Below the pieces are notes generated by a model. It searched no databases. It was given only the letters and a program-made list of their open reading frames with translations, and was not told the DNA's origin. A DNA stretch of 64,000 bases from Ulota crispa (Eukaryota; Streptophyta; Bryopsida; Orthotrichales; Orthotrichaceae): contig OY987247.1 in the NCBI GenBank assembly GCA_963920765.1, forward strand, positions 9,644,471 to 9,708,470, written 5' to 3'. A program made the position numbers and the translations under genes. Position 1 is the stretch's first letter, and each line of letters starts with the position of its first letter. Positions 19,432 to 48,200 of this stretch are shown here, piece after piece.

Positions 19432-20510
19432 TCGATCCGACTCCCATTGTGCGCCCCCAGCTCAACTCAACCGAACCTCCGGACGCGAGGTCCGAATGGC
19501 AGCTCTTCCTTTCCAGAGTACCATCGTGCAACAAAACAAGATCCCCATTGCGTCACGACGGCACCAACCCTTCCTTCCTGGTCTGCCGCTGCACGCTGGT
19601 TCGGGTCGGTTTCGAGAAACTCCGTGGCCGTTTCCAGCCTGCAGCACTCTCGATGCAGTGCCCCCGTACCCATTCAATATGCAAAAACACAAGCCAAGAA
19701 GGTGGTCCATTCCGTGTCCCGACACGTCCCTTGCCCTCGCAAGCACCAGCCTACGAGAATCCCTTCGTTCCCACGAAGCGGTGATGACCCCGACCCTCGG
19801 CAACACTCCTCCTCGCCCTCTCCCCTTCCCTCGACTTCATGCAACAACGCGTTCCCTCGCATTGTCCATCTCAGGACACCCTTGCACCACTGACATTCAG
19901 TGCATCCACCGATGAGGATGCGATCCACATACCCACTCCAGACTCCAAGCTCACAGCCCAATGGCCGATTGACGCCTCTCACCAGCCATCGCTTCCACAT
20001 AACTCCACACGCGACATGCGGGACTCTCCACGGACATCGAAACGGGCCAGCCTGAGGGGTCCGGAAGACGAAGGCCGTGCCCCACAGGACACCAGCCTCC
20101 CCTCGTCAAGCTCGCGAAGAGACAGGGGATTCCCAGCACGACCATCATGAAAAACTCCTCCACCCTCAGTGCACTACAACACCCACCCGGCACGCAACGC
20201 CCCCATCCGCTGTGACCGGTTCCCTGCACCACCAACGTGCATGATTGCCGTTCCACCCCCACTAGTACTACTACTACGTAAATCACACACACCCACACAC
20301 ACACCCCACATACATCCCGCATGAACTGCACGCTCCACGTTCCCTGCCCTCCCGTACGGAAAACGTCTCCGTCGTGACCGCCAAATCGTCCGCCATCAAA
20401 GAGCCCTACTTCCACTTACCACAAAATGCGGAAACCCTGACACCACGACGACGCCTTCCCCAACACGTTGGGCGACCCCCACCACCGGCACCCACTCACC
20501 CATTCACTCA

Positions 20511-20549
20511 CTCCCTCCCTCCCTCCCTCCCTCCCTCCCTCCCTCCCTC
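20511..20549. repeat. (CTCC)n microsatellite, left arm
   Basis: About 39 bp of tandem CTCC. The counterpart in the right arm, 47072-47122, is 12 bp (three units) longer. This is one of the few differences between the arms. Confidence 0.9.
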
Positions 20550-20669
20550 ACGTTCCAAACCCCCTTGCACTGAACTACACCTCATCAGATCCACCATCGC
20601 ACCTCCGTCGGTCCACAGTCCAAACACGACACCCCACACGCCTCTCCTTGGAGGAAACCCCCCGGCAAC

Positions 20670-20675
20670 TTTATT
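20670..20675 (-). promoter_or_regulatory. Polyadenylation signal of the left syntaxin gene
   Basis: AATAAA on the minus strand, about 540 bp after the stop codon at 21214. The same hexamer is in the right arm at 46946-46951. Placement fits a 3' untranslated region but there is no transcript evidence. Confidence 0.4.
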
Positions 20676-21213
20676 GTACAGATTCTCACTCACTGCTGCG
20701 CAGGATCCAGACTATGCATCGCCTGCTGCAGTCCAGGAGAACAGGAAAAACATCGAAGAACGCGGACCCCTACACCCGCTCAAAGCAAAGCAAGGAACGT
20801 ACACAATGGATCAAAATAATATCACCTCCTCCGAAACCAGACACCAGACACCAGACACCATAAACCATAAGCTAGCGCGGAAACACCTACGCCTCCTAAC
20901 TCACACCACCATCTTCCCCTCTTTCGCACTCTCGGGTTGACGTGGAACGGCATCCCCATCGTCCACAGCAGCCGCAACTGCGCCCCGAACCCCGTCTCCA
21001 TCCAAAACTCAGCTCAGCTCAGCACCCAAACCATTCTTGTCACGGTCGGCCACGTTCCATACCCCCCCACCCCCACTCCCAAAGCAGCTGCTGCTGCTAC
21101 ATACTGTGCCATTGGCATCGCCGGGATCTCCCCATAACCACAGCAACGACGCGCTCGGTGGGTTGGTCGATTCGACGGAACCACCCGATTCCCCGTGCGC
21201 TGCGCTTCCGTCC

Positions 21214-23022
21214 TCAGATTACGTTCGTGTGTTTCAGCACGGGGATGATGATGATCACCAGTGCGATGCACAGCAGAATGATCGCTATGCACGTCCACTT
21301 CCGCTTGCTCCTCTGGTGCTGCTTGGCCACTCTCAGATGCGTGCTCCCCCTCTCCACGTACGACGCCGACCGGTTCACCTGCGCCTCGATGTTGTTCAGC
21401 TGCTCGCCCTGCGCCTCCACCAGCACCGACATGTCCATGAAGATCTGGTGCAGCTCCAGCAGGTTCTTCTCGATCTCCTTCACGGAGTCGTGCCTTTCCT
21501 GGATCTCCCGGATGGTTTCCATCACATGCCCCCGCCCCTGCTCTTGGATCGCCTTCTGCAGAAAGCCCTCGCTCTGCCCCGTCTCGATGATCGTCTCGAT
21601 GGTGTCCTCGTCCGCCTGCTGCCCCGTCACCGTGTAATATCTGCACACCACTCGTCCGACATCAGCCCTCTCTCCCTCTCAGCCACCCCACTCATGCATT
21701 CCCACATCCTCTGCTTCACCTGCCGCGCCCGCGGTCGCTTACCCGACCAACAAGCACAGCTTCCCTGCACGCACCTACGTCGCTCACTCGCTCACTCGCT
21801 CACTCCCTCGGATTTGGTTTCGCGACTACGCTCGACGTGGTTGCATACCGGACACCCCAGCGGCCAGGGGAACAGCCATCATGCGGCAGCGGCCTCCGCC
21901 GCGAGTTCCCAGCCGCGGACGCGGACGACGCCACCGCATTCGTTCCCACCTGCCTGCATCCTCGGCGTACTAGGGTTTCCGAAAACCTCGAAACGGTCGC
22001 GGACGGACTACCGCCCACGGCTGCGCAATCGCAAGCTGCCGCACCCAGACGACCACCACCACCACCACCACGTCCCTGGACGACCGCAGGTACGAAGGAA
22101 CGCGGGCGGGTCGCTGACCCGCCAGTCCCGCGCGAGCCTCCACTCCGAACGCTCGTTTCCGGACCACCCTCGGCAAATTCGCCCCCGGCCCCCTAACCAT
22201 ACCCTTGGGCTCATCGACGCATGCATTCCCCAGCCGTGCCCGATGCCCTAGCCCTGGGCACACTGTTGTCTCCCGGGGCCTAACCTCGCAATTCCCCCGG
22301 CTGCTTGGCAGTTCCGCCGCCCAGCCCACAGCATCTCCGTGCCCAATTCAGTTCCGTTCGATCCCATTCAACTCAATTCAATTCAGTTCAATTCAGTCCC
22401 TTGCACTCAAGCCCCAAACCCAAGCATTCTGACTCCCCGTCCAACATCTGCACAACCGACCAAGGTCACGGAAGCGAAGCAAACGCAGGACCGCGGTGCC
22501 CAGGGTGCCGTACCTGCGCTCGATGGTCTCCCTGTACTCGTTCATCATCCTCTCCCGGAGAGCCTGGAACTCGCCCATCAGATCCTTGAGCTTCTTGCGC
22601 TGATTGCTGGTGATGCTCATCCGAGTGCGGTCCGTGGTGGTGCCCTCCTCGCACCCCTTGGTCCTGCGGCTCTCCGCGTTGCCTCGGTCCAGATCCTCCA
22701 GCTTCGCCTTGATGCCCCTCGCCAGCTTGCTCACCTGCGCAATGTCCGCATCCATGCGACCGCGCAGCGCCTTCATGGCGGGCGCGCGGTGCACGCCCTT
22801 GCTGTCTTCGTTCGCCTCCTGCAGCTTCATCAGCAGCTGCTTGATCCTGTCCATGTCGCCCTTGATTTTCTCCACCTCCGCGAAGAACCGCCCCAATCGC
22901 TGGTCGCCTCCGCCCATCTCGGCCATCTGCGTGCTCGGCCCGCCTCCGCCCTCCAAATCATCGTCGTAGGGGCCCCGGCCGCCCTTCCGCGCCGACAAGG
23001 TCTGCGACAGCAGGTCGTTCAT
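21214..23022 (-). CDS. Qa-SNARE syntaxin, SYP12 type (left-arm copy)
   Basis: Two exons, 23022-22514 and 21640-21214, are separated by an 873-bp intron and encode 311 residues. The N-terminus [13 protein letters not shown] is typical of plant plasma-membrane syntaxins. A three-helix Habc region is followed by STDRTR-like TTDRTRMS and the linker [18 protein letters not shown]. The Qa-SNARE helix (AIQEQGRG through [18 protein letters not shown] to NNIEAQVNR) has the central-layer Gln in the HQIF segment. A C-terminal membrane anchor ([20 protein letters not shown]) ends the protein. In land plants these proteins drive vesicle fusion at the plasma membrane or cell plate. The protein is identical to the right-arm copy. 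Codons are strongly G/C-ending, unlike the other genes here. The intron position at ERR/YYT matches Arabidopsis SYP12 genes as I recall them. Confidence 0.95.
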
Positions 23023-23641: not shown

Positions 23642-23908
23642 CAATGACCGGTCTCGGCGTCCGAGGCACTGCGTCGTTCCCCAGTCGCACCGGCGGATGG
23701 ACTGATGGATGTGTTCGTCATGGATGTGAAGTTATTTTTGATTGCGTTTGCCAAATTATTAGTGGGACTGTGTCGAGGTGTGAAAGGTATGACAGTGATG
23801 TCGTTAACATTTCGTGAAGAAATGTTTATGCCCAATGGAAATTTCATGAGTGCTCCACTTGAACGGCCCTTCATGATTGTTTCCATCTTTAGGGTCATGT
23901 GATACATT
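23642..23908. other. Junction sequence inside the left arm
   Basis: Unrelated to the sequence that borders the right arm. The first 70 bp remain GC-rich (CCGGTCTCGGCGTCCGAGGC) and then give way to AT-rich DNA, so the original gene-proximal upstream region may survive here. Confidence 0.45.
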
Positions 23909-24310
23909 GGGGTAGTCAGAGTAGCATTTTTGCATTCTCAATCTTCAAGGGAAATCAATGTGGCGCTTCCTCCGCGACTCGTTCGAGCGCAGTTCCATGA
24001 AGATTGAGAAAAAAAATTCTCCTCCTCCAAGGGTGGAGAAATGGCCGACAAATATTATTTGAGTGAGAACTCTTACCATGGTTCGCATGTTTACTAGCTT
24101 GTGAATTGTTGTTTACCCTTGCTTTTTCTGCTCCTCCAATCGGTGGTCGTGTTGCCTTCCTCTAAGTAAAACATTCTCCATTCTCCTTACTCACAAAAGG
24201 GGTGTCACACCTCCTTCCGTGAAGAAGTGCTTCCATTGGCTCCTACATTCACTCAATCATTTCTCAATCTTCACGGAAATCTCAATCTCAAACCAAGCGT
24301 GACTACCCCT
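23909..24310. mobile_element. MITE with termini GGGGTAGTCA
   Basis: The left end is GGGGTAGTCAGAG and the right end GCGTGACTACCCC. Both subterminal regions contain TCTCAATCTTCA in inverted or direct form. A longer relative is at 37881-38753. No coding capacity. Confidence 0.7.
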
Positions 24311-26256
24311 ATTGATTGCTTGGAGATGGAGGAAGTTGCGTTTGCTTGACTTGTCCCATTTGTGCTTCAAATGCATCTGATGTATGTATCTGTCAACTTG
24401 TGTGAATGGAGAAAACCTAAATCCCCATTGCAAATGTGAGTCAAGTTTGGCAATGCAAATGGTCTTCTAGCAAGCAAGCCCTAGGCTTTTGCGAGTGGAG
24501 GGGTGTGGAAAGCTTTGGTTCACGGGGTTTGAAGGATTTCTTGCAGTCAATCATGTCGTTTTGTGTTGCGTTTTTGTTGCTCAATTTTGAGCATTAGCAC
24601 TTCTTGCCTAAACTTGGAAATTTATGTTCTATTGGGGCCTACAACTTGAGGAACCAATTGAATAGCAAAATTGGCTTTGGAAAAATTTAGCTACTATATG
24701 TTGAGAGCAGATTCGACATAAATTAATTCCTCTAAATTTAGCCAAATTATTTCATATATTATTCTCCAAAAATGCCCAATATCAAACCAAAAAAAACCTA
24801 AAATGTGGAACATTATAGAGCTAATTTTGGAGAGTCTAGGTTGATTTTAGGAGGGCTCAATCTATTCCAAACTTTGTACCAAGGACTTATTGCCATATAT
24901 TAACATTTTTAAAGGCCAAATCAACATGAAATTATTAACTCTGACGCCAAAATCAAGCTTTTTTGGAAAAATATACTATTTGGCAGCGAGTTGACGAATC
25001 TGCTCTCACGAATCTGCTCTCATGCTACAGTAGTTGAAATGGGCAAAATGTCGATTGGATTTAGTGAAAGGTTGATTCAAAGTTAGACATTTCTGCTTGT
25101 AAGAATGGATATCAACCATTTAAGGAATGTGAGTCATCACACTTTTTAACTTGGTCCTACTCATAAGTGGTTATGTAGCCAATGCACATGCAATATTATC
25201 AAACTTTTGATGATTGATTGATCCAAACAATGACATATATGCAAAGATTTTGTAGATTTGAGTAGATATGGGTTAGAAAAGTTGGCCTTGGCAGGATTTC
25301 AAATCAAATCGCTAGGCATTTACAATTTGAAGTTGAAACTTGCCAATCCAAAAAAAAGTCTTCCTTGATTTTATTTTGTTCTTGTCGTTGTAGTTTTTGT
25401 TGCTTTTGCAAATCCAATTTTTAGCACTCCTCCATACCCTAAGTTCTCGTATTCTTGTTGTATATTCTACAATTTGCACTTAACATAAAATCAAAACACC
25501 TACATCTATCATACAAAAAAATATTGTGCATACTTGTCTTTATAGTAGCACTAAGGAATGTTGTCATTAAGTGGGTTAATTACAAGGATATTTTGTCCAA
25601 ATTGACATGTCCTAATTTACTAAATGTGTCCAAATTGACAAAAAAAAAGTGTCCTTATTGACAAAAGAAAATGTCATGATTGACATGTCCTACTTTACAA
25701 AAAAATGACCAAATTGACAGATTTCCCTTGTAGTTGATCTATGTGAGTTTATCAACATTTGATATCTTGAAGTGTTAAGTTGTATTTTTTGATAATTACA
25801 TTTGACATGGCACTAAGATAAGATCAAACATCATTTTCCCCATGGATATCTCAAATTCCATTTTGAAGTTGTAATTTTGAGTTGCTCTTACTTGGCTTTT
25901 TTTCTGTAGCATCAAAATCTTGAGTGCCAAATACAAGGTTGTAAAATAGTGAGTAATTATCGTAATTTCATCAAATCCAATTGTATTATTTAGGATACAA
26001 TTAAGCAAAGGAACCACCCTTCTGAATCCAAAATTAGTGTTAGTTTGAATCTCATGGTTTTTTATTTCCTATAATTTAGGTTACTATTGAAAAATCAAAT
26101 CATTAGTTGTATCTGTGATATGTGGTTTAGATCTTTTTTGAGAATTGTATAATCCACTTAATCGTTAAGAAGGATTGCGTTTGTCAGAAAAAATTAGATT
26201 CATGATTTAAGGGATTTTTGGGTGCAAATTAGACTGTGTTTATAATTGATTATTTT
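24311..26256. other. AT-rich intergenic DNA
   Basis: No gene was recognised. A cluster of short repeats around 25580-25720 contains TGTCCAAATTGACA and related words several times. The phrase ACGAATCTGCTCTCA is doubled near 25000. Confidence 0.5.
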
Positions 26257-27187
26257 TTAACCCCTAAAGGGCTGAGCCCTTTTTCTTGCAAAGCCATTGA
26301 AAACTATCACTTCTAGGGCAATGAATAGAAAGGTAGAAAATTTGTTTTCTTTTAAACAGATTGTAGGATCCTATCTTGGACTATGGGAGATACTTGAGGG
26401 AAACAAATCAGCTCATTTTCAATGTAGAGGAGTGAGGTATTGACATTTGAAGTGCAAAAAAAAGTTTTTTTCTTGATGCCCCAAAATTTCAAAAGCCTTT
26501 CACCGCTCCTATATTAAAAAAATTGCTCTACTCAAAGTTGAGGTTTATTTTTTTCATGTAAAAGACCAAGTAAGGTATGTGTGGGAGAATTTTCAAATGA
26601 ATTGGAGGTGTGAATCATACTTTGTAAAATCTTGCACTACCATAAGGCCATGAAATTTGCATATACACTACGCAAAATTGGGGATTTCTATAAAATTTAG
26701 AAATTTAAATTACTTTGATCCAAATGGTGATAATCAAGGAATCTTAGTCCATTACAACTTGGAGAAATAATTAATTAATTAATTAAAGCACCAAATTTTA
26801 CAAGGAGCAAAAGGAATGGAGGTTTGTGTGTTCCATACTTACCTGCAAACTAATCATCAATAAAAAATGAATGATTCAAAGCTTCCCACATATATATATT
26901 GTATGAATCTAAATGACCAACTCTAGGGGGTTTTTATTTTAAATGAAAATTTTAAAAATGTTTCTTGGGCTACCCGAATTGCTTGCCCTCCCTTGTTTTT
27001 CAAAAATTCATGCATAACTTCTTCAATAAATGTGAGAATGAAGAAAAACTTAGATGTGCACCTACATTTTTGAATTCCCCGCCTTCCTCAAAAGTGTTAA
27101 TTTTTTTTATAAAAAATGGTTTAGTCATAGGTACATGCCCAAGGTCCCATTTGTTCCTCGAGGGGACAACAGTCCTTTAAGGGTTAA
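26257..27187. mobile_element. TTAA-flanked element, 0.93 kb, same family as 101-1008
   Basis: It begins TTAACCCCTAAAGGGC and ends CCTTTAAGGGTTAA. Internal sequence matches the reverse complement of 101-1008 over long stretches, for example around ACTATGGGAG and CAAATCAGCTCATT, but is diverged. It is therefore an old, independent copy. Confidence 0.75.
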
Positions 27188-27415
27188 CCCCTCAAGGGCC
27201 CTTGGGCTTTGGAGCTACGGTACCAAATACGGTTGCAACCAATATTCAGAAGTTTGAATTAGCTAAAAATGAAGTGTTACAACCATACATATTGAAGGGT
27301 TGTATGATGGTGGGTGCATAAAAAAAATTGGAAAGCCCTCCAAGCAACTCAAATACGTCTGTATATACAACCGTACATATTGCCGCAAAGGGTTTTTGTG
27401 ACATTCGGGGGTTAA
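27184..27415. mobile_element. Second TTAA-flanked element sharing a TTAA with its neighbour
   Basis: It starts TTAACCCCTCAAGGGCCC at the same TTAA that closes the previous element and ends at TTCGGGGGTTAA. The terminal inverted repeats are short and imperfect, so this call is weaker than the others. Confidence 0.5.
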
Positions 27416-28662
27416 ATTTGTAGTTTTTTTGATGTTTGAATACAATTCAAGGGGCATTTTCAAGAATCTCAAACTTGTAAATTTGATTTAAATCTATGAC
27501 TTAAATATTTCTTTATTCTTAGTTAGTATTCTAATTTAGAAAATTTTAAAAATATCAACTTCAATTGTCTTTGAAGAAAAGGTAAAGGACCCATTGCATT
27601 GAATTCAACATCAACTAATGCCATTTCTAATTTGCAAGTGTCATAACTTGCCCATGAATAGCTAAGAAAGATCTCTTGGTTTGCAACCAAAATTTTGATG
27701 GTGCAGTGGTTGCTTTGATATTGACATCAAGAGATTTTTTAATTGCTTATCAATATTATCCAAATTCCTTACTAATTCTTTTATTTATTTATTTTATTTT
27801 TATTTTTTTTCCAATGTAGTGATCCCTATTAATTGAGCTAGCAAACTTGTCTAACCCCTCCATTCAAGCTAGTGTTCACCAATGGCAACTTCAATTGTTA
27901 AAGCTCTTATAAACTTGTATTTTTATTTAGGAGACTTTGTTGATTAAACAATTATAAATAAAAATAGCTAAGTTTTTTTTATTTAGTAATTTCTACATTT
28001 TTTTAAAATTTGAAATTATGACCAAGCAGTAAAGAACAATAGAAGACTGACATGTTTGTTAAGTTTGGAGGCAGTACAAAATTGGTGGACATGCACAACC
28101 TTTGTGGTATCGCATCTTTATCAATCACAATATCAATGTGATAAAAATATATGTTATTCACAAAAAAATGAATCGAGAAATATTGGGAACTTTTTACAGA
28201 TTGGGTTGAATTTAACCAGCTTGAAAAAGATTTTGTGTACAATTTCTATAAGAGAGGAAATACATGTTTCTATATGATAAAGAGGGATCATCTAATATCA
28301 AAACATCAATCACACAAAATCCGCTAAAACAATAAAACATGAGAGTTTGTCTGAGGCTAAGCATTGAAGACAAAAACATTAAAAGAAGCAGTAGCACTAT
28401 CAAATAAGTTTTGAAACGATGCATTGTTCTCTTTTTGAAAAGCATCATATTTCATGTGAAAGAACTTGTTTTTTTTTAATATCCCAATTTGTATAAATTG
28501 CTTCTTTCATGCAATTTATTCATGACAAACAATTGTATCATGATGACAAATTATGTGTAAATATAGTGTATCTCAAGTGTTGTTTGTGAACAATTGCTAA
28601 ATAAATTAAAGATAAAAAAGAAGTTGGTTTGATGATTGATGCATCCATTTATATATGTGGTA
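27416..28662. other. AT-rich intergenic DNA
   Basis: No gene or repeat family was recognised. Open frames of about 75 codons at 28003-28448 show no family similarity I can name. Confidence 0.5.
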
Positions 28663-28980
28663 TAAGTTGGGAACACCCATAAGCGTCACATTCTCCATAA
28701 CCGTCACCTCTGAAATCTTGGAAAATCTGTGGAAATGAATAGATGTAACTACAAGAATGTACAACTTGTGAACATGAAATCTTGAAAGTGGTTATGGGTG
28801 CAATGGCAGTTTGTTCTTTAAAAATTTATAACAAATTCTCACAGTATTCAAATAATACATTCAAAAAGGCAAACTCAATATTTCTTTGTTCTTAATAGGA
28901 TCCTAAAATTTGCTACTTGTTTATTGATACTCATCATGTTCAAAACCCTTAATTTAACACTTATGGGTGCTCCTACCTTA
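28663..28980. mobile_element. MITE with termini near TAAGG-N-CACCCATAAG
   Basis: The left end contains GGGAACACCCATAAGCG and the right end its inverted match, CACTTATGGGTGCTCC, finishing TACCTTA. A second copy of the same length class is at 51573-51887, with the interior phrase GTGGTTATGGGTGCAATGGC in both. TA borders would fit a Tc1/mariner-type (Stowaway-like) target, but this is unproven. Confidence 0.75.
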
Positions 28981-29313
28981 ATGTTATTTGGTTATGTTTG
29001 CCATGTTTTTTTAAGTGATTTATCAAAATTTTGTTTTCATGAAATTTTAATCATTGTGTATAGTAAGAAATCTTTCAATGTTATTGTCAAATGATTTATG
29101 GCAACTGTGAAGATATGGAAGCTACGTATGCCGAGGTGTGTAGCTTTGATCAAATAACTTAAGGTCTGTTCATATTGGGTATTATACAAAAACCCTTGTT
29201 ATTATTCAATGTGCAGATCTTTTGGAAAACAATCCCTTTCCACACAATCTAGTGTTCCGAAACTATTGTAATATTGCATAAGAGCCACATGTTCACATGT
29301 GCAACTGGCTAAT
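28981..29313. other. Short AT-rich gap
   Basis: Nothing recognised. Confidence 0.5.
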
Positions 29314-30055
29314 TTAACCCCTAAAAGCCCAAGCACTGTTTTTTTTTGCCAAAATAGTGATATTGGGCAGCTCACTACAAGTGGATTATTCATCTTTTTT
29401 TCTTTGAAAATTTCACACATGATGTATCCAAGGAGTAGTTTTAAGGTCCAACAATTTTCATAACTTTTGGCTACATGGTTCAAAAGCTATTGCATGAAAT
29501 GTTGTTTTTTCTAAACTCCAGGCAACCTGGGCAACTCAAAAAACTTCTTTAAAAATTAAATTTTTTTGAATATTTTTTTTGAGATTGGTTCTTTAGACTT
29601 ATGTGTACTTGGGAAGCTTTGAACCATTCATTTTTTATTAATGATATGAAAGTTATGAGACATTTTAGTTTGTGGGTAGGTCTAGAGCTAGACCTATCCA
29701 CAAACTAAAATGTCTCATAACTTTCATATCATTAATAAAAAATGAATGGTTCAAAGCTTCCCAAGTACACATAAGTCTAAAGAACCAATCTCAAAAAAAA
29801 TATTCAAAAAAATTTAATTTTTAAAGAAGTTTTTTGAGTTGCCCAGGTTGCCTGGAGTTTAGAAAAAACAACATTTCATGCAATAGCTTTTGAACCATGT
29901 AGCCAAAAGTTATGAAAATTGTTGGACCTTAAAGCTACTCCTTGGATACATCATGTGTGAAATTTTCAAAGAAAAAAGATGAAATGTCCACTTGTAGTGA
30001 GCTGCCCAATATCCATTTTGTTCCTCAAAGGGACAAGTGGGCTTTTAGGGGTTAA
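29314..30055. mobile_element. Near-perfect 742-bp palindromic foldback element with TTAA ends
   Basis: Two arms of about 370 bp meet almost without a loop at about 29690, in AGGTCTAGAGCTAGACCT. The ends are TTAACCCCTAAAAGCCCA and TGGGCTTTTAGGGGTTAA, with TTAA on each side. Only scattered mismatches and short indels separate the arms. There is no coding capacity. A transcript across it would form a long hairpin. Confidence 0.9.
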
Positions 30056-31536: not shown

Positions 31537-31793
31537 CAACACCATATTAGGTGAATTGGAAAAAGGGGTATATTTTGGGACTTCTGCAGGTTGTACATGA
31601 TCATGTACAACTGAGCTCAGTGTTTTTTTTTGTACATGTGTCCTCATCTGAGAAAAGGAATTTGCGAGGGAAAAAATCTTAGTGGCTAAGACTGAAAGTG
31701 ATACCTTCAAATCTGATTTTAGGTGACGTTCTCAAATGTAGGTGAAGTACAAATTGGGATACCCTTTTTCCCAATTTACCTAATATGGTGTTC
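31537..31793. mobile_element. MITE with termini CAACACCATATTAGG
   Basis: The left end CAACACCATATTAGGTGAAT and right end ATTTACCTAATATGGTGTTC form an inverted repeat of about 33 bp with few mismatches. The interior contains the palindrome TTGTACATGATCATGTACAA. TA lies at both borders. Confidence 0.75.
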
Positions 31794-34870: not shown

Positions 34871-34879
34871 TTGGCGTCG

Positions 34880-35190
34880 TGCTCTCCTGAGGGTTTGTTA
34901 ACAATGTGCATTTGTTAAAGTTTGTTGGCTCCGCATTTTTCTCATGTTTGCTTGATCTACTGAGGTTTGTTGGCTCCACATTGTTCTCATGTTTGCTTGC
35001 TCTGCTAAGATTTACTTGCTCTGCGATCTTCTTAGGTTTGCTCGTTCCGTGTTTTTCTCAAGTTTGCTTGCTTTGCGCTCTTTTCAGGTTTGCTTGCATT
35101 GGGCACTTGTCAAAATTTGTTGGCTCCGTGCTCTTCTCTAGATTTGTTGGCTTCGTGTTTTTTGTAAGTTTGCTTGTTCTGCCCACTTAT
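34880..35190. repeat. 33-bp minisatellite, about nine degenerate units
   Basis: Units contain GTTTGTTGGCTCCG or GTTTGCTTGCTCTG followed by a TTCTCA-like segment, at about 33-bp spacing. Because the period is a multiple of three, one frame (34906-35226) stays open and gives a repetitive hydrophobic translation. I do not consider that a gene. Confidence 0.8.
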
Positions 35191-37879: not shown

Positions 37880-37880
37880 A

Positions 37881-38753
37881 GGTAGTCACACCTTGTTCTC
37901 AATCTTCAAAAAATGGAAACATGGTACTCTCTTCTTGCTTTTGAAGAGTATCCACTCTCTCAAGATTGAGAACTTTTCTTTTTCAACTCCAAAACAGAAG
38001 AATGGGCAAGAAGAAGTTTTTGCATGTGAAATTTTTACCGATGCATGTCTCTTTTTCATCTTGCTCTTCTTGCTTTCACCTTCCTTGTTTTTGTTCTAGT
38101 GTGAATGTGGCTTACTTTCTTATTGCGCAACCATTTTCTTAGTAAACTTATTCTTCATTCATTATTTTCCACCACCCAAAAAAGGGAATCAAAGCTTCTC
38201 CATGGAAAAATGTTTTCATGAGCTCCTAAGGTAGTGTGCTTGAATTGCAACCCTCTAATGTAAAGTGCCTCAATAATTAGTTCAAGAATGGATATGAAGT
38301 GGACTTTGAGTGGACTTCTTTAGCCATAGAAAAAAGGTATATTTTATTGCAAGAGCTAATCCTACTCCTTGATATCAACTAATCTCTTTATAAGTTACAC
38401 ATGAACAAATTTTGCAAGACCCACATGTCACAACTAGGTGCCTATTATAAAAAGTTATGAATACTCATCTACCAAATTCAATAATGCTTCAAAAATACAA
38501 AAAAAAATAAGTCACTTTTGACATCTATTTCTCTTTGTTTGAAAATTAGACAAAATAATCTTCTTACCTAGAAAGCCCATGACAAGCAAATCAGCCCTGA
38601 ACCCTTTAGGGCCAGGTCGTCTTGGATCAGTGCTAAAATTGACAAATTTTGGTCGCCTTGGCCCTAAAGGGTTAAGAGTTGCTTGTAGAGCACATTACCT
38701 TCACTACGCTCCACAATTTCTCATTTTTCATAGAAGTGAGAAGGTGTGACTAC
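37881..38753. mobile_element. MITE-like element with termini GGTAGTCACACC
   Basis: The left end GGTAGTCACACCTTGTTCTCA region is inverted at the right end as GAGAAGGTGTGACTACC. It is related to 23909-24310 through its ends and internal blocks (for example CATTGGCTCC against CATGAGCTCC). It contains the 78-bp TTAA element at 38598-38675, so that one inserted later. Confidence 0.65.
38598..38675. mobile_element. 78-bp TTAA-type miniature element
   Basis: The ends TGAACCCTTTAGGGCCA and TGGCCCTAAAGGGTTAA are inverted repeats. The left TTAA has decayed to TGAA. The interior, about 44 bp, holds a further inverted pair (GGTCGTCTTGG and related). It is among the smallest members of the TTAA group. 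Confidence 0.65.
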
Positions 38754-38829
38754 CCTTGTTGCAGCGATGCACCCACGATCTTGCTTGTGGCCACCAACGA
38801 AAAGCATTTTGCTGACAAGACAATTAGTA

Positions 38830-38935
38830 TAGGGTTAAGCCTCGACTCTAGTGCGATATGCACAATTAAAAGCCCTCGGGCTCCGCCCTCGCGCGCTTAA
38901 TTGCGCGTATCGCACTAGGGTCAGGGCTTAAATCA
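38830..38935. repeat. GC-containing inverted repeat
   Basis: GTTAAGCC near 38834 and GGGCTTAA near 38930 bracket an inverted pair, CTAGTGCGATATGCACAATT and AATTGCGCGTATCGCACTAG, with the centre CCTCGGGCTCCGCCCTCG. It may be another small mobile element or an imperfect hairpin. The origin is unknown. Confidence 0.5.
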
Positions 38936-39211
38936 GCGTTAACCCTAGTCGAGCTCCGCTTTGCACAAGTTTGATCCCCGCTTACAATTTGCATACCTGC
39001 AAGTTGATTTTGCTTGTTCACATTTAACAATGCAATGCACCATTAAAAATCTAATCATGCATTACATTGTTAAACATATTTGCTGGTCTATTAAATGTGT
39101 GGATTTGTTGAGGCAGAAAGCCCAGCAAGGTTTAACAAACAGCTGAAGGACAAATAAAAAACATGAGATTAAAGATTAGTATAGCCAGCCACTGCGTACG
39201 AGAGGGGGGGG

Positions 39212-40439
39212 CTGGGGTTAGCTGGCATGCAGTTTTGGTTGGACCCCATTGTATTTTGCTTTCAGCCTAGTCCGACCTTGCTCAACCTTACTGCCCAAAA
39301 TATTTTGTCAAATTGTGCGTTCAAGAACCGCACATGTAACCCCAGCCCTGACGTTTAGTTTTACAACTACCTAACTAGTTTGTAATTGGTTTGTAATTGG
39401 TTTGTAATTGGTTTTTCACCTTACTATGTATATATCATAGGTATTTGTGTGTGGATTATTATGTTATGTATATTTTTAGTGGTTAAATTTTTTGTAATAA
39501 GGAAGAGAATTTATGTCATTCATGAGTGTTGTTCAATTCTTTGTTCTATTCATATGTGTTATTCATATGTGTTGGGAGGGACAAGGTTATGAACTTAGTG
39601 CTTTCTGTTAAAATAAGAGCAATAAAATAATGACTTCCTATAATGAATGCGGGATTTGATATATGCACACGGGGGGATAAATTTTGGATATGTCTCATCA
39701 ACAAGTTGAATTTGGAAAATCTAAATTCAGATTTGGATTTAGAGACCTTGATTTAGCCTAGAATCATAAAGGGAATTATAAGTGAACAACCCCTAGTGGA
39801 AAAGCTTAGTTTTTTTTTACAAATAAGAGTAAAGTTAATAATTTGCCCCTACCGAAGCTTTTCCACTAGGAGTTGTTCACTTGTAATTCCCTTTATGATT
39901 CTAGGCTAAATCAAGGTCTCTAAATCCAAATCTGAATTTAGATTTTCCAAATTCAACTTGTTGATGAGACATATCCAAAATTTATCTCCCCGTGTGCATA
40001 TATCAAATCCTGCATTCATTATAGGAAGTCATTATTTTGTTGCTCTTATTTTAACAGAAAGCACTAAGTTCATAACCTTGTCCCTCCCAACACATATGAA
40101 TAACACATATGAATAGAACAAAGAATTGAACAACACTCATGAATGACATAAATTCTCTTCCTTTTTACAAAAAATTTTACCACTAAAAACATACATAACG
40201 TAATAATCCACACACAAATACCTATGATATATACATAGTAAGGTGAAAAACTAGTTACAAACCAATTACAAACTAGTTAGGTAGCTGTAAAACTAAATGT
40301 CAAGGTTAGGGTTACATGCGTGGTTCTTGAACGCACAGTTTCACAAAATATTTTGGGCAGCAAGGTCGAGCAAGGTTGAACTTGGCTGAAAGCAAAATAC
40401 ACTGGGTCCAGCCAAAACTGCATGCCATCTAACCCCAGC
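39212..40439. mobile_element. 1.2-kb foldback element with arms of about 590 bp
   Basis: The left arm, 39212-39807, and right arm, 39855-40439, are inverted copies separated by a loop of about 47 bp. The outer ends read CTGGGGTTAGCTGGCATGCA and TGCATGCCATCTAACCCCAG. The arms differ by scattered substitutions and a triplet duplication of TTTGTAATTGG on the left. There is no coding capacity. Confidence 0.88.
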
Positions 40440-40798
40440 CGAGGGGGGAAGCTGCCCGAAAAAACACACACCAAACTCTCAAATTCTTAAAGAGACGTTC
40501 CCCACCAACTCAGGAGGTCACGAGGACCGTGCTAAAAAGGACGAATCAAAAACAGCAGTTTCCAAAAAGGAACAGCCAGGGCCAGAAAAAGCTAACCTAG
40601 GCATCAAAAGCAGCAACTAACAGACCCCATTTCGAAGTCAATTTCGTTAGCTCCTCCAGACAAGGATGGATGACGATGAATCCCCACACACCCCTCAGCC
40701 GAAGCCCGGCGCTCCCCCCCTACTTCCAACCCGTGCACCAGCCGTGATTCAAGCAGAGCTGGGAAATGACGCAGAGTGGGTGTCAAACCTTTGATATT
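40440..40798. other. Short gap of mixed composition
   Basis: No gene was recognised; several open frames are short and lack similarity. Confidence 0.45.
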
Positions 40799-40888
40799 TT
40801 AACCTATGAACGTCGAAGGGGATGATTTCCGTCCCCAGGAATATACGGGGTCATGTACCCATGATCACACCCAGCGTTCAAGGGTTAA
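40799..40888. mobile_element. 90-bp TTAA-flanked miniature element
   Basis: The ends are TTAACCTATGAACG and CGTTCAAGGGTTAA. The same end type, TTAACCCTTGAACG, opens the element at 63892. The interior carries a second inverted pair around ATGATTTCCGTCCCC. Confidence 0.6.
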
Positions 40889-41034
40889 GATTTTGGGATA
40901 ACTCTATCTCGAACTTTTCTTAAAGTTAGGGGTGGTGGTTGAACCATAATTTGCAAAGTTATCACCTTTGCACAACTTCACAAACAACATGATAAAAAAT
41001 TTAGTAAGTTTTCATAACGTATGTATGAGATAAT

Positions 41035-41810
41035 GTCACAAAGATTGATGTGTGATATTAAAAAGGGACACATGTGATATTACAAAGGTCAAAATGTGAT
41101 ATTACAAAAGGTCATTGTGCTTAGGGGGGTTCAAATATCTCAAATAAATAGTGAACAAATGGTTGTGAACAAGTTTTCGTTCACTAGTAAATATGTTGTC
41201 ACGACCTCGGGAGGTTGTCATGACTTGTTCACAGAGTGACTTAGTTGGGTTATTCATTAGTTTCATTCATGTGAACAAAATTGGTGGTGAATGACATATT
41301 TGAAACCCCCTATTGTATCCATAATATCACAAAGGTTAGGGTGGGATATTTAAGAGGTTAGTGTTACTACTAATTATACTACTAAAATCTCAATTACCTT
41401 TGTAATATCATCCTAACTTCTTTAATATCACATCTCCATTCTTTGTGACATTATGAATACAATCATAGTGAACTCTATAATATCACATCTTGAGTTATGT
41501 AATATCACATATTAAACTCTTGAATATCACATTCCACCCTCTTTAATATCATAAAATTGCATAAATTAAAATTTAGGGTTTAGTAGTGAGAGGAGTTTAA
41601 TGTGCAAGAAGAAAGCTACAAGATCCCTTGATAACTTTTATAATGAGAGGCCGTAACTAGTTTGAGTTGTCAACCATCTCTATAGGTGGGTGATGAAGTT
41701 ATCATACCTGATAACTTGCAAAAGTGGTTGAGTTAGGGGGTGAACCTTGCTAGAGTTATCAAGTAGGAAATACCAAAAAATAGCCAGGTTTGACACCTAC
41801 TAAGGTAGTC
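41035..41810. repeat. Second copy of the ATATCAC dispersed repeat
   Basis: Bases 41390-41800 match 1-100 joined to 1010-1365 with no 0.9-kb element between them, so this copy is a paralogous empty site for the element at 101-1008. Bases 41035-41345 match the inverted flank seen at 2062-2162 and are interrupted by the MITE at 41122-41312. Confidence 0.75.
41122..41312. mobile_element. MITE with termini TAGGGGGGTTCAAATAT, 191 bp
   Basis: The left end TAGGGGGGTTCAAATAT and right end ATATTTGAAACCCCCTA are inverted repeats. The interior has inverted GTGAAC/GTTCAC words. It interrupts sequence that is continuous at about 2080-2100, so the insertion is visible by comparison within the window. Confidence 0.75.
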
Positions 41811-42597
41811 GGCTCTAAAGGCGTTTGGTCATTTTGAATTGACAATGTAGGGTCACAAAAATAGTGCACAAAGATTCTTAAATGGGTCACATATTTTTAT
41901 GTTCAAAAATTGTACTTGTACATGCACAGTTTTAGAACCTCAAAAGAGTGATATGAGTTACCATTAAGTTTGCTTATTGGTCATAATTGTGTTGAGTTTT
42001 GTCTTCAATAAAATATTGGTATATGTCATACTAAAATAAATGAAAACATGTTCTCAATCATGATTTGAGCATTGGAATACAAGATGGGTGCTTGCACGCT
42101 TTAAGAGCCTTATTGGAGCATTCTTGGCTTTGTAGTGGTTGCATTTAGGACTCATGTGCTCCATTTACAAGGCGCCTTTGCATCATGAATGCTACCACCT
42201 ATGACCAAGAATAGATACCCAAGCACAAGCGTTCTCTAAACTAGCTAAATTTAGCAGGGATGGCTAACAAATTTTTCTTGTAGCTAAAAAATGTAAGCTT
42301 TCTAGTGTTAAAATGGAAAGTTTTAGCTTTTTAGCAATGTTTTTAGTCACTTATGCTAAAAGTGAAAATCATATTTGGGTGCTTGGCAAGCACATTTTGC
42401 TTTTGTTAATTGTAGTTGTCATACCAACTCAAAAAAATTCAAATTAAATGGCCATAGAACTATTTTTTCTTTAGCTTTCTAGCGAACATATATCCAAGTT
42501 GCTAATCTGACTTCATTTTAGTACATAGGTCATCTTTTCCTTAGATGGTCCGTTTACAAGCCAACCACCTTAGTGCCTTGAACACGAAGACCGGTCC
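41811..42597. other. AT-rich intergenic DNA
   Basis: No gene or repeat was recognised. Confidence 0.5.
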
Positions 42598-42695
42598 TTA
42601 ACCCCTAAATGCCCAGGCAACCATTCTTGGGTGTTTACAAAACTTTGAAGATGAATAAAACCTTATCAAATCACTATTTTTCAGTATTTTTTATT

Positions 42696-42840
42696 CAAAG
42701 TAAGCTTGTTTTTTTTTAATGGAAAAAGCCCCATGGGGAAAAAATTGAGACCGTCCCGAGACGTTGGTCATCGTATAATAAGAAGAATATGAAATACAAG
42801 AAAAAACCCCTTAATAGGGGAAACAAAGTAAGCTTGTTTT
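42696..42840 (-). mobile_element. Short retroposed insertion with a 17-bp target duplication
   Basis: CAAAGTAAGCTTGTTTT occurs perfectly at 42696-42712 and again at 42824-42840, enclosing 111 bp. Read on the minus strand, the insert contains a CCCCTATTAAGGGG hairpin, later CCCCATGGGG, and ends in an A-rich run next to the target repeat. Such long target duplications with an A-rich tail are typical of LINE-driven retroposition, so this is a SINE or a 5'-truncated LINE end. The relative at 36.5 kb lacks it. Confidence 0.7.
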
Positions 42841-43121
42841 GAAATCTATTTTCAACATCAAAAATTTGATTTTGAAATTAAGTATTGATGACTTTCTACT
42901 CAAGCTTTTGTACAAAGGGGTACACTTGGCTTATGAATTTTTTTCCAAGGAACCTGCCAAAAAATTCAAGAACTTCCAGAGGCCATAACTTCCTCAAAAT
43001 TGTTTGTTTTTAAAACCAAAAATGCGTTGGAATCCCACTGAAGGGTACTACATGATTTGATTTAAAAAATCTAAAAGTTTACAAATGACAATTTTTTTTT
43101 GGCTACTTTCTATATAGTGTC

Positions 43122-43322
43122 CATCATTCCTCTAATCAAAATCACCGTTTGAATTTGATTGGGCTACATTACCACCAACGGCCAAAGAACAAGCAAGAAA
43201 TGATACACATCATTCAAAGAGTATGGGATGAGGTATCTATGGAGCAATTACAAACCCTTATAGCAAGTATGACCAATCGAATTGAAGCGGTGTTTTTGGC
43301 AAGAGGTAGAAGTACTAGATAG
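43122..43322 (+). pseudogene. Tc1/mariner-type transposase C-terminal remnant
   Basis: An open frame of 66 residues ends at a TAG at 43320-43322. The segment NHRLNLIGLHYHQRPKNKQE resembles the SPDLNPIE...LW...R block of Tc1/mariner transposases, and IIQRVWDEVSMEQLQTLIAS with MTNRIEAVFLARG resembles their C-terminal end. The position of the last catalytic acid (E in NPIE) is Gly here, and the N-terminal two thirds are absent. It cannot be active. It sits exactly between the inverted arms of its host element. Confidence 0.6.
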
Positions 43323-44613
43323 TAGACACTATATAGGAAGTAGCCAAACTTTTTTTATTATTTGTAAACTTTTAGGTTTTTTTAATCAAATCATGTAGTA
43401 CCCTTTAGTACAATTCCAACGCAACTTTTGGTTTAAAAAATGGACAAATTTTGAGGAAGTTATGGCCTTCGGAAGTTCCTGCACTTTTCAGTGCAGGTTC
43501 TCTGCAAAAAAATTTGTAAGCCAATTGTACCCCTCTCTAAAAGGGTGTCCACTGCAATCTTGAGTTTTTAAGTGTTAAAAGATCTTGAAAATGACCCTCA
43601 AGTACACTAGTGCTTGGAGAAAAATCCACACTAGAAATCCATTGAAAAAATTATAGGAGTAGATTTTAAAGCTGCAATACATTAGTCAAAGTTAGACATG
43701 CGATGACCTCAAACCTCATATATTTTTGTGACCAAATTTTTAGAATTGACATGTGAAATGAGATAAGAAGACTTCAAGTAACTATTGCAATTTTAACACC
43801 CTCATGTTCAAACTTTATAATCTCCCAAACTATTAAAATTATTGTTTCTTCTTTTCCCATGAAACCTCTAACATGTTTAGTTCAAACTGTACGGTTGAAA
43901 AAAACTCGACTAAACTTACGAAAAGGTTAATTGATTGTTTCGTTTCATGGAAATGACAAAGGAGCTCAAACATGCCTTGAGCATTTAGGAGTAAATGGCT
44001 GCCACCCGGGCCGCAGGCGTCGTCGCAATCGCCGGAATCTACCACTGTGGAGGGCCGCATCTGCGGAACGCCGGGCCCATGTGCGCCCTGCGTACATGGG
44101 GCGAGCCCGTCGGCGCCTTCCAGCCTCCCTTCCTTCCACCCTTCGTCGTCCGCCGTGCTCGGGCTTCCAGGCAGGCAGGCAGACCCGTTGCCTTGCAGCG
44201 CTGGGTGCCGTCCCAGTCTCTTCTGTGCCTCCCTTTGCGGAGCTGGCCATGTGGGCATCTGCGATCTCAATCCCCCCTTCCGACTTCCGGATTCCGCATC
44301 GCTTGCACTCCCGCAGCGCTCGTCCTTGCCTGCGCTTGTTGCTCGCCCTGCCTCGCTTCTTCGGTTCCCCCCCCCTGCCGATTGTCGCGGGAGGAGGCCG
44401 ATCGTCCCACTGTCGCCGCGGCTGGTGCTGGTGCTGGTGCTGGTGCTGGTGCGGGGTCCGTGTTTGCGTCGGGGATTGGTGGATTCCGGCATGAGGCGCT
44501 GGTCGGGTCTGGCGTTGCTGGTTTGAGGGTTCTTGTTGCACGGGTTGCGGCGTTGTGCGCGAGCAGAGCAGGTTGGCGGAGGGGGCGCCCGCGCTCCCGG
44601 GGTTGGAGTCAAG

Positions 44614-46422
44614 ATGAACGACCTGCTGTCGCAGACCTTGTCGGCGCGGAAGGGCGGCCGGGGCCCCTACGACGATGATTTGGAGGGCGGAGGCGGGCCG
44701 AGCACGCAGATGGCCGAGATGGGCGGAGGCGACCAGCGATTGGGGCGGTTCTTCGCGGAGGTGGAGAAAATCAAGGGCGACATGGACAGGATCAAGCAGC
44801 TGCTGATGAAGCTGCAGGAGGCGAACGAAGACAGCAAGGGCGTGCACCGCGCGCCCGCCATGAAGGCGCTGCGCGGTCGCATGGATGCGGACATTGCGCA
44901 GGTGAGCAAGCTGGCGAGGGGCATCAAGGCGAAGCTGGAGGATCTGGACCGAGGCAACGCGGAGAGCCGCAGGACCAAGGGGTGCGAGGAGGGCACCACC
45001 ACGGACCGCACTCGGATGAGCATCACCAGCAATCAGCGCAAGAAGCTCAAGGATCTGATGGGCGAGTTCCAGGCTCTCCGGGAGAGGATGATGAACGAGT
45101 ACAGGGAGACCATCGAGCGCAGGTACGGCACCCTGGGCACCGCGGTCCTGCGTTTGCTTCGCTTCCGTGACCTTGGTCGGTTGTGCAGATGTTGGACGGG
45201 GAGTCAGAATGCTTGGGTTTGGGGCTTGAGTGCAAGGGACTGAATTGAACTGAATTGAATTGAGTTGAATGGGATCGAACGGAACTGAATTGGGCACGGA
45301 GATGCTGTGGGCTGGGCGGCGGAACTGCCAAGCAGCCGGGGGAATTGCGAGGTTAGGCCCCGGGAGACAACAGTGTGCCCAGGGCTAGGGCATCGGGCAC
45401 GGCTGGGGAATGCATGCGTCGATGAGCCCAAGGGTATGGTTAGGGGGCCGGGGGCGAATTTGCCGAGGGTGGTCCGGAAACGAGCGTTCGGAGTGGAGGC
45501 TCGCGCGGGACTGGCGGGTCAGCGACCCGCCCGCGTTCCTTCGTACCTGCGGTCGTCCAGGGACGTGGTGGTGGTGGTGGTGGTCGTCTGGGTGCGGCAG
45601 CTTGCGATTGCGCAGCCGTGGGCGGTAGTCCGTCCGCGACCGTTTCGAGGTTTTCGGAAACCCTAGTACGCCGAGGATGCAGGCAGGTGGGAACGAATGC
45701 GGTGGCGTCGTCCGCGTCCGCGGCTGGGAACTCGCGGCGGAGGCCGCTGCCGCATGATGGCTGTTCCCCTGGCCGCTGGGGTGTCCGGTATGCAACCACG
45801 TCGAGCGTAGTCGCGAAACCAAATCCGAGGGAGTGAGCGAGTGAGCGAGTGAGCGACGTAGGTGCGTGCAGGGAAGCTGTGCTTGTTGGTCGGGTAAGCG
45901 ACCGCGGGCGCGGCAGGTGAAGCAGAGGATGTGGGAATGCATGAGTGGGGTGGCTGAGAGGGAGAGAGGGCTGATGTCGGACGAGTGGTGTGCAGATATT
46001 ACACGGTGACGGGGCAGCAGGCGGACGAGGACACCATCGAGACGATCATCGAGACGGGGCAGAGCGAGGGCTTTCTGCAGAAGGCGATCCAAGAGCAGGG
46101 GCGGGGGCATGTGATGGAAACCATCCGGGAGATCCAGGAAAGGCACGACTCCGTGAAGGAGATCGAGAAGAACCTGCTGGAGCTGCACCAGATCTTCATG
46201 GACATGTCGGTGCTGGTGGAGGCGCAGGGCGAGCAGCTGAACAACATCGAGGCGCAGGTGAACCGGTCGGCGTCGTACGTGGAGAGGGGGAGCACGCATC
46301 TGAGAGTGGCCAAGCAGCACCAGAGGAGCAAGCGGAAGTGGACGTGCATAGCGATCATTCTGCTGTGCATCGCACTGGTGATCATCATCATCCCCGTGCT
46401 GAAACACACGAACGTAATCTGA
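44614..46422 (+). CDS. Qa-SNARE syntaxin, SYP12 type (right-arm copy)
   Basis: Exon 1 is 44614-45122 and exon 2 is 45996-46422, joined through the codon AG/A to give 311 residues identical to the left-arm copy. The intron has the same length, 873 bp, and I saw no differences in it. The protein has the Habc region, the Qa-SNARE helix and a C-terminal anchor facing the extracytoplasmic side with only KHTNVI beyond it. The shared upstream segment is 619 bp and includes a (GCTGGT)n run near 44423-44450. Beyond that, the distal upstream DNA is a transposon here but different sequence in the left copy, so distal regulation could differ. There is no sign of decay in either copy. Confidence 0.95.
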
Positions 46423-46945
46423 GGACGGAAGCGCAGCGCACGGGGAATCGGGTGGTTCCGTCGAATCGACCAACCCACCGAGCGCGTCGTTGCTGTGGTT
46501 ATGGGGAGATCCCGGCGATGCCAATGGCACAGTATGTAGCAGCAGCAGCTGCTTTGGGAGTGGGGGTGGGGGGGTATGGAACGTGGCCGACCGTGACAAG
46601 AATGGTTTGGGTGCTGAGCTGAGCTGAGTTTTGGATGGAGACGGGGTTCGGGGCGCAGTTGCGGCTGCTGTGGACGATGGGGATGCCGTTCCACGTCAAC
46701 CCGAGAGTGCGAAAGAGGGGAAGATGGTGGTGTGAGTTAGGAGGCGTAGGTGTTTGCGCTTTAGTTTATGGTTTATGGTTTGTGGTTTCGGAGGAGGTGA
46801 TATTGTTTTATTCTATTGTGTACGTCCCGTGCTTTGCCTAGGGTGGTTGCAGGGGTCCGCGTTGTTCGATGTTTTTCCTTTCTCATGGACTGCAGCAGGC
46901 GATGCATAGTCTGGATCCTGCGCAGCAGTGAGTGAGAATCTGTAC

Positions 46946-46951
46946 AATAAA
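46946..46951 (+). promoter_or_regulatory. Polyadenylation signal of the right syntaxin gene
   Basis: AATAAA about 525 bp after the stop codon at 46422, matching the left-arm site. It lies just beyond the divergent patch. Confidence 0.4.
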
Positions 46952-48200
46952 GTTGCCGGGGGGTTTCCTCCAAGGAGAGGCGTGTGGGGTGTCGTGTTTG
47001 GACTGTGGACCGACGGAGGTGCGATGGTGGATCTGATGAGGTGTAGTTCAGTGCAAGGGGGTTTGGAACGTGAGGGAGGGAGGGAGGGAGGGAGGGAGGG
47101 AGGGAGGGAGGGAGGGAGGGAGTGAGTGAATGGGTGAGTGGGTGCCGGTGGTGGGGGTCGCCCAACGTGTTGGGGAAGGCGTCGTCGTGGTGTCAGGGTT
47201 TCCGCATTTTGTGGTAAGTGGAAGTAGGGCTCTTTGATGGCGGACGATTTGGCGGTCACGACGGAGACGTTTTCCGTACGGGAGGGCAGGGAACGTGGAG
47301 CGTGCAGTTCATGCGGGATGTATGTGGGGTGTGTGTGTGGGTGTGTGTGATTTACGTAGTAGTAGTACTAGTGGGGGTGGAACGGCAATCATGCACGTTG
47401 GTGGTGCAGGGAACCGGTCACAGCGGATGGGGGCGTTGCGTGCCGGGTGGGTGTTGTAGTGCACTGAGGGTGGAGGAGTTTTTCATGATGGTCGTGCTGG
47501 GAATCCCCTGTCTCTTCGCGAGCTTGACGAGGGGAGGCTGGTGTCCTGTGGGGCACGGCCTTCGTCTTCCGGACCCCTCAGGCTGGCCCGTTTCGATGTC
47601 CGTGGAGAGTCCCGCATGTCGCGTGTGGAGTTATGTGGAAGCGATGGCTGGTGAGAGGCGTCAATCGGCCATTGGGCTGTGAGCTTGGAGTCTGGAGTGG
47701 GTATGTGGATCGCATCCTCATCGGTGGATGCACTGAATGTCAGTGGTGCAAGGGTGTCCTGAGATGGACAATGCGAGGGAACGCGTTGTTGCATGAAGTC
47801 GAGGGAAGGGGAGAGGGCGAGGAGGAGTGTTGCCGAGGGTCGGGGTCATCACCGCTTCGTGGGAACGAAGGGATTCTCGTAGGCTGGTGCTTGCGAGGGC
47901 AAGGGACGTGTCGGGACACGGAATGGACCACCTTCTTGGCTTGTGTTTTTGCATATTGAATGGGTACGGGGGCACTGCATCGAGAGTGCTGCAGGCTGGA
48001 AACGGCCACGGAGTTTCTCGAAACCGACCCGAACCAGCGTGCAGCGGCAGACCAGGAAGGAAGGGTTGGTGCCGTCGTGACGCAATGGGGATCTTGTTTT
48101 GTTGCACGATGGTACTCTGGAAAGGAAGAGCTGCCATTCGGACCTCGCGTCCGGAGGTTCGGTTGAGTTGAGCTGGGGGCGCACAATGGGAATCGGATCT

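Follow-up and report, generated by a model that had tools for sequence, protein, structure and literature searches.

The subject of this report is a large inverted repeat in the genome of the moss Ulota crispa, each arm of which holds one syntaxin gene. It lies in a window of 64,000 nucleotides (the whole stretch of DNA that was analysed; assembly GCA_963920765.1, contig OY987247.1, positions 9,644,471 to 9,708,470 of the forward strand). When the window was compared with itself by BLAST, a single match of this kind was obtained, 19431-23641 against 48202-43995, with an identity of 98.84% over 4,223 columns, and a repeat search of the window gave perfect inverted blocks of 2,795 and 1,119 nt between the arms. 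An earlier note on this DNA had described arms of about 4.2 kb facing each other across 20.35 kb with an intact syntaxin gene in each, and both parts of that description are borne out: the spacer measures 20,353 bp and the arms 4,211 and 4,208 bp, and the inverted repeat is confirmed as real in the assembly, only the label 'giant' being overgenerous for arms of 4.2 kb. The two genes stand head-to-head with their ATGs inward and have the same structure, an exon of 509 nt, a GT-AG intron of 873 nt and an exon of 427 nt that includes the stop codon, encoding 311 amino acids. The protein matches the Pfam families Syntaxin (6e-53) and SNARE (8e-16), its closest solved structures are syntaxin-1 chains, and a hydrophobic C-terminus can be read from the protein sequence, which together with the two domains makes up the architecture of a Qa-SNARE. 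We provisionally call the gene SYP12-type, a label that is compatible with the domain matches. No second gene was detected in the arm, as the best Pfam match among the ten open reading frames of the arm A region had an E value of 0.083, and no RNA family reached its gathering score within the window.

The differences between the arms are gathered in one place. Aligned base by base, the arms differ by 22 substitutions in 4,196 aligned columns and by three indels, and 20 of the substitutions and two of the indels fall in a single patch 3' of the stop codon. The other two substitutions, at positions 19433 and 19441 of arm A, are at most 11 bp from the outer border, and the third indel is a 12-bp difference within a CTCC microsatellite; in the approximately 4,055 aligned columns outside the patch and the border there are no substitutions. 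The exons, the intron and long noncoding stretches had been described as apparently identical in the earlier note, which holds for the exons and the 873-nt intron and fails in the patch, where 20 of 130 aligned columns are substituted (15.4%, Jukes-Cantor 0.17) in addition to indels of 1 bp and 14 bp. The chance that 20 of 22 substitutions fall in a fixed stretch of 130 columns is 1.4e-28, or about 6e-25 when multiplied over the columns. The substitutions are point changes of an ordinary kind, distributed over the 145 bp, half of them (10/20) transitions, and among the 15 weak/strong differences the G or C is in arm A nine times and in arm B six times, in an unpolarised count. Since the patch is located 334-478 nt past the stop codon and precedes the only sense-strand AATAAA of the arm by 61-205 nt, it is probably in the 3' untranslated region (UTR); the number of such hexamers in that stretch is within chance expectation. 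The two versions are homologous and collinear while differing by 15.4%, and therefore the patch is not a foreign insert. When the arm A version was used to search the assembly for a third copy that could have served as donor, only the two arms matched (100% and 83%), in a search that skipped common words and simple repeats and that a short donor could escape.

The arms also stand out by their base composition. Their guanine plus cytosine (G+C) content is 61.9 and 61.8%, compared to 34.3% in the spacer and 33-44% in the four 1-kb flanks, and the maximum over 429 windows (4.2 kb each) from the rest of the 64-kb stretch is 49.4%; five 3-kb samples from contigs C3, C4, C9, C10 and C11 are at 33.6-38.5%. 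In steps of 200 bp, the change coincides with the arm border at three of the four edges; on the inner side of arm A, another 60 bp at 68% lie beyond the border before the drop. The elevation is not confined to exons, as noncoding DNA within the arms is at 57-68%. Compared to five related SYP12 genes, the intron has 63.9% G+C versus 43.1, 43.9, 43.0, 36.4 and 40.8%, the 600 bp upstream 67.7% versus 40.8-55.0% and the 600 bp downstream 57% versus 36.5-45.8%. Retention of CpG is insufficient to explain this, because with CpG removed the arm intron is still at 54.9%, compared to 35.2-38.4% in the relatives. In the patch the G+C content (49 and 45%) is below that of the remainder of the arm. A rise limited to the arms, together with a patch of lower G+C, is what GC-biased gene conversion predicts.

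The assembly comprises 274.8 Mb in 157 contigs, of which C1-C11 span 41.4 to 6.3 Mb and C12 and C13 are below 24 kb; the repeat lies on C6 (22.9 Mb). A protein search gave 17 matches; full relatives are located on C1, C2, C5 and, as two genes, on C8, and weaker matches lie at 17.9 Mb of C2 and at 29.3 Mb of C1. The two genes on C8 are also inverted and head to head, with start codons about 24 kb apart, and constitute an inverted SYP12 pair with another fate, with diverged noncoding DNA and ordinary G+C. Their exons are 95.1 and 89.8% identical, and of their noncoding DNA about 110 bp upstream (81%), the first 300 bp downstream (70%) and a 67-column piece of the intron (95.5%) are alike, the remaining compared noncoding DNA being at 44-52%. 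This pair, the divergent patch and the G+C step at the borders go beyond what the earlier note had noticed. Synteny between the C6 and C8 pairs was considered and is not supported: when four fragments of the window flanks were joined into one query, none of the 12 matches was on C8, and for the methyltransferase fragment the best match beyond the window was on C11. The C8 DNA (50.9 kb) shares with the window only syntaxin exons and repeat-like noncoding stretches, and the two window stretches of the latter kind that were checked for copy number were both high-copy. Descent of the common head-to-head layout from a single ancestral palindrome is therefore not demonstrated.

Table 1. Features of the inverted repeat, its spacer and the flanking DNA (positions in the window).
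Feature	Position	Strand	Remarks
Arm A	19431..23641	gene on -	4,211 bp, 61.9% G+C
Syntaxin exon 1, arm A	22514..23022	-	509 nt from ATG
Intron, arm A	21641..22513	-	873 nt, 63.9% G+C
Syntaxin exon 2, arm A	21214..21640	-	427 nt including stop
Divergent patch, arm A	20736..20880	-	145 bp, 49% G+C, putative 3' UTR
AATAAA, arm A	20670..20675	-	only sense-strand copy in the arm; possible poly(A) signal
CTCC microsatellite, arm A	20507..20549		12 bp shorter than the arm B copy
Arm B	43995..48202	gene on +	4,208 bp, 61.8% G+C
Syntaxin exon 1, arm B	44614..45122	+	
Intron, arm B	45123..45995	+	same sequence as arm A intron
Syntaxin exon 2, arm B	45996..46422	+	
Divergent patch, arm B	46756..46885	+	45% G+C
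AATAAA, arm B	46946..46951	+	counterpart of the arm A hexamer
CTCC microsatellite, arm B	47072..47126		
Spacer	23642..43994		20,353 bp, 34.3% G+C, CpG observed/expected 0.39
G+C-rich tail adjoining arm A	23642..23701		68% G+C, without counterpart beside arm B
End of high-copy repeat abutting inner border of arm B	43600..43992		393 bp
Arf-type GTPase fragment (flank)	11914-12333		
HIT zinc finger/DEAD-box helicase gene (flank)	13641-15976		
B3 domain (flank)	54640-55065		below its cut-off
C-5 cytosine DNA methylase gene (flank)	58432-58989		

The borders give some indication of the history of the repeat. Of the high-copy repeat whose end abuts arm B, 39 other copies were scored, with an identity of 79-82%, and 32 of these share its end point at base 43992 (scored were the best 40 of 2,864 first-look candidates, the window's own copy included). 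With relatives at 79-82%, the inner junction of arm B is therefore not young. It seems that the arms may once have been longer, arm B having been cut by the repeat, and the tail adjoining arm A is possibly a stump of the lost part. No terminal repeat or target-site duplication was seen at the arm ends in an inspection by eye, and the presence of two copies only speaks against a transposon-borne gene copy. The only open reading frame of at least 130 amino acids contained wholly inside the spacer has no Pfam match. Other repeats of the window include another high-copy one, located within the spacer close to arm A at about 23885-24322, with at least 46 matches (the best 40 of 1,170 candidates were scored), and a palindrome of 742 bp at 29314-30055 (94%; a core of two 290-nt arms with a 2-nt loop), which is a foldback or a repeat resembling a miniature inverted-repeat transposable element and recurs beside the C8 SYP12 pair (C8:13674375-13675097) at about 81%. 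Foldback-like inverted repeats are also seen at 39210-40440 (1.2 kb, 91%), 42908-43542 (0.6 kb, 72%) and 1-2162 (two 562-nt arms at 98.6% around 1 kb).

Near-identical gene pairs were also found elsewhere in the genome, when the LHC, HSP20 and histone families were scanned for neighbouring near-equal matches and the DNA was compared for eight LHC and HSP20 pairs. Two inverted LHC pairs have a mosaic structure. In the one on C6 (C6:18415801-18459000, 33 kb apart), about 1.5 kb at 98-100% is followed on one side by a homologous tail at 57-82%, and in the one on C7 (C7:1382201-1490400, 98 kb apart), about 1.3 kb at 98-100%, introns included, lies beside sequence mostly at 60-97%. Such tracts inside older diverged duplications are read here as putative conversion tracts. 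On C7, a palindrome (C7:5952638-5958357) has two 2,505-bp arms at 99.92% around a 710-bp spacer, with one HSP20 gene in each arm, and further inverted pairs are an HSP20 pair on C8 (90.6%) and LHC pairs on C4 (731 bp at 99.0%) and C8 (577 bp at 93.9%). A direct LHC pair on C1 (C1:168126-170025 and 295251-297150, separated by 127 kb) shares 1,900 bp at 100% identity with no tails; its G+C content is 52% between the exons, 62.5% in a 626-bp, partly coding stretch 5' of the domain match and 30-42% in the flanks. It is compatible both with conversion over a distance and with a G+C-rich gene having been copied recently. Eight genes with no near-equal neighbour (three HSP20, five LHC) are at 39.1-46.9% G+C in stretches of 4 kb, and the intron of one of these LHC genes is at 41.2%. 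Eight LHC genes on both strands of C4:21391382-21771811 have equal or near-equal domain scores and are possibly homogenised, and near-equal histone-family matches on opposite strands, 7-13 kb apart, occur at C1:11490935-11504067, C1:24205224-24212386 and C8:6046845-6063613. Inverted orientation was counted in 12 of 15 neighbouring near-equal pairs (within 150 kb and 5 bits), two of the 12 being the syntaxin pairs. This count used 22 of 56 LHC, 21 of 21 HSP20 and 19 of 29 histone rows and seven genes from the 17 syntaxin rows, second-exon rows, weak rows and the LHC block on C4 (21.39-21.77 Mb) having been dropped. Including the C4 block, whose neighbours within 150 kb are one inverted and five direct, and what may be a direct pair on C82 changes it to 13 of 22, and a bias in orientation was dropped as a candidate; the claim is thus limited to inverted near-identical pairs being common.

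In our view the locus is probably an old inverted duplication that has been homogenised by arm-to-arm gene conversion, probably GC-biased, with the patch as a relic. A single young duplication would scatter its differences along the arms, and the clustering therefore cannot be the result of a uniform recent duplication, which is why conversion is favoured. The earlier note had left recent duplication and continuing conversion side by side, and the clustered divergence, the arm-limited G+C and the tracts of the two LHC pairs turn this choice towards conversion. The arms suggest two very different ages in one repeat (0 substituted columns of about 4,055 against 20 of 130), and the simplest account is that the patch retains the age of the duplication while the remaining arm was homogenised later. 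The divergence of the patch and the old border repeat may point to an identity above what the age of the duplication would allow, a dating internal to the locus. A head-to-head duplication of a SYP12-type syntaxin gene would have arisen long ago, after which breaks in one arm would have been repaired from the other, inverted and 20 kb away, as non-reciprocal interlocus gene conversion. The repair would have proceeded without crossover, probably by synthesis-dependent strand annealing, as a crossover would invert the spacer. If mismatches were resolved towards G and C, repeated rounds may have lifted the entire arm, intron and flanks included, to approximately 62% G+C, and the heterologous 145-bp patch with its 14-bp indel would tend to be skipped in recent rounds and hence persist.

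Several observations weigh against this account. The HSP20 unit on C7 has 37.5-44% G+C outside its gene core despite its 99.92% identity, an inverted HSP20 pair on C9 (2,368 bp at 99.58%) has 42-49%, and the intron in the 98-100% tract of the LHC pair on C7 is at 37.6%. A homogenised unit with G+C raised above its unhomogenised homologues, noncoding DNA included, as expected of GC-biased conversion, is seen in the SYP12 arms and not in other near-identical pairs such as the HSP20 palindrome on C7. Near-identical pairs of ordinary G+C mean that identity alone does not raise G+C, and the age and the number of conversion rounds would have to differ between pairs. The direct C1 pair is both identical and G+C-rich, so an inverted arrangement is not a requirement, and a G+C-rich gene may have been copied recently. 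In 3 kb of sequence past each pair of borders, no diverged homologous tails were found. There is a strong G skew on the sense strand, of 0.30 in the intron and 0.40 in the far 3' region, an asymmetry not predicted by strand-symmetric GC-biased repair; transcription-linked asymmetry or R-loops are possible sources of the skew. Third positions of SYP12 exons lean towards G and C (62-84%) even in three unpaired genes, so part of the G+C could predate the duplication. The step of about 20 points is far above that of the published palindromes consulted, and a local burst of mutation is a possible origin of the patch.

Some of these observations would be explained if a gene that was already rich in G+C had recently been duplicated in inverted orientation and a single local event, either error-prone repair or import from an unseen related sequence, had then made the patch. 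The C1 pair with its sharp ends resembles such a recent copy of a G+C-rich unit, SYP12 exons in general are G+C-leaning, and the lack of diverged tails past the borders agrees with it. However, the intron and most flanks of the five SYP12 relatives have ordinary G+C, the patch is poorer in G+C than the rest of the arm, its differences are of the ordinary kind described above, and a search of the assembly with its arm A version, short donors aside, turned up the two arms alone; we regard this explanation as unlikely. An artefact of assembly would be a collapsed or duplicated haplotype, a misjoin, or polishing that made the arms look identical, and the earlier note had asked that a collapsed haplotype or a misjoin be excluded. 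Polishing can indeed wipe out low-level differences between long repeats, but it cannot produce base composition, and the arms do differ in the patch, the microsatellite and the ends. The window belongs to one contig and contains no N, the sequence flanking the arms differs at each of the four borders, other chromosomes carry inverted pairs with a range of identities, and exactly two full-length copies of the arm were found in the assembly, both in the window, with a 501-bp probe and with the full arm alike. The other eight arm matches were exon-sized and correspond to related genes on C5, C8 and C2 (71-81% identity); the search passes over very common words and scores the best candidates only. 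On this evidence, which is that of the assembly, a collapsed haplotype or misjoin is disfavoured, and we consider an artefact very unlikely.

Selection could also be thought to have kept the patch different, the genes being identical save for a copy-specific 3' regulatory cassette. The location of the patch, probably within the 3' UTR, would suit such a role, but neither version has more RNA structure than expected by chance (z 0.56 and 0.34), and a passive relic explains it equally well, making selection by itself the least likely of the accounts weighed here. A broader version, in which continual conversion over 4 kb would be combined with a selected, copy-specific cassette of 145 bp in the 3' UTR, so that one protein would be made from two separately regulated messages in a genome that may generally hold its duplicates as inverted pairs, is also unlikely.

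Homogenisation by arm-to-arm conversion would place the locus among known systems, as palindromes with gene conversion are a known kind, and its composition effect is unusually large. The arms are large, inverted and gene-bearing, with high identity extending through intron and flanks, as in converted palindromes. The comparison with sex-chromosome palindromes made in the earlier note serves as an analogy of mechanism and no further, the locus being on C6, one of the 11 large contigs. According to passages of one study (PMC8981503), mammalian X palindromes likewise have inverted, near-identical, gene-bearing arms with G+C above the flanks, there also with genes masked; in the human X, arms have 46.3% and flanks 41.2%, attributed to GC-biased conversion. 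Here, in contrast, the arms are only 4.2 kb, the step is about 20 points versus about 5, and the spacer is low in G+C where theirs is intermediate. The W palindromes of Salix purpurea (passages of PMC7023750) are plant palindromes with arms above 99% on average and evidence for gene conversion, but they lie in the sex-determining region and involve 20-kb stretches common to four arms instead of two. In Physcomitrella patens, PpHsp16.4a/b are a 100% identical gene pair, oppositely oriented at a distance of a few kb, although tail-to-tail with 7,725 bp between the stops and interpreted as a recent duplication with inversion; the passages on them (PMC4228350) carry no information on G+C or on a patch. 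Near-identical tandem neighbours in Physcomitrella have been put down to possible gene conversion as a general statement, with no palindrome or composition in the passages concerned (PMC3045890, which cites Lang et al. 2008). Among the open-access titles listed on palindromes or inverted pairs and gene conversion in mosses or plants, none points to a plant gene palindrome with raised G+C away from the sex chromosomes.

For the plant, the product would be, if both copies are expressed, two interchangeable doses of one plasma-membrane secretion t-SNARE, a function predicted from the sequence. Defence structures of the cell wall in Arabidopsis depend on SYP12 proteins, one of which can be replaced by a SYP12 of Marchantia (PMC8865848, in part). 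The genes described here resemble those of that clade as plant secretory syntaxins judged by domain content, and their placement in it is provisional, being based on domain matches. If the account of conversion is true, one plant locus would carry the full signature of long-term conversion, with identical arms, a relic patch and a sharp G+C step at the borders, and the unhomogenised SYP12 copies of the same genome would serve as its controls. The step above the surroundings is several times that of primate X palindromes (passages of PMC8981503). Taken together with the LHC tracts and the HSP20 palindromes that lack a rise in G+C, the locus would then allow both the strength of a GC bias in repair and duplicate persistence to be measured in a plant.

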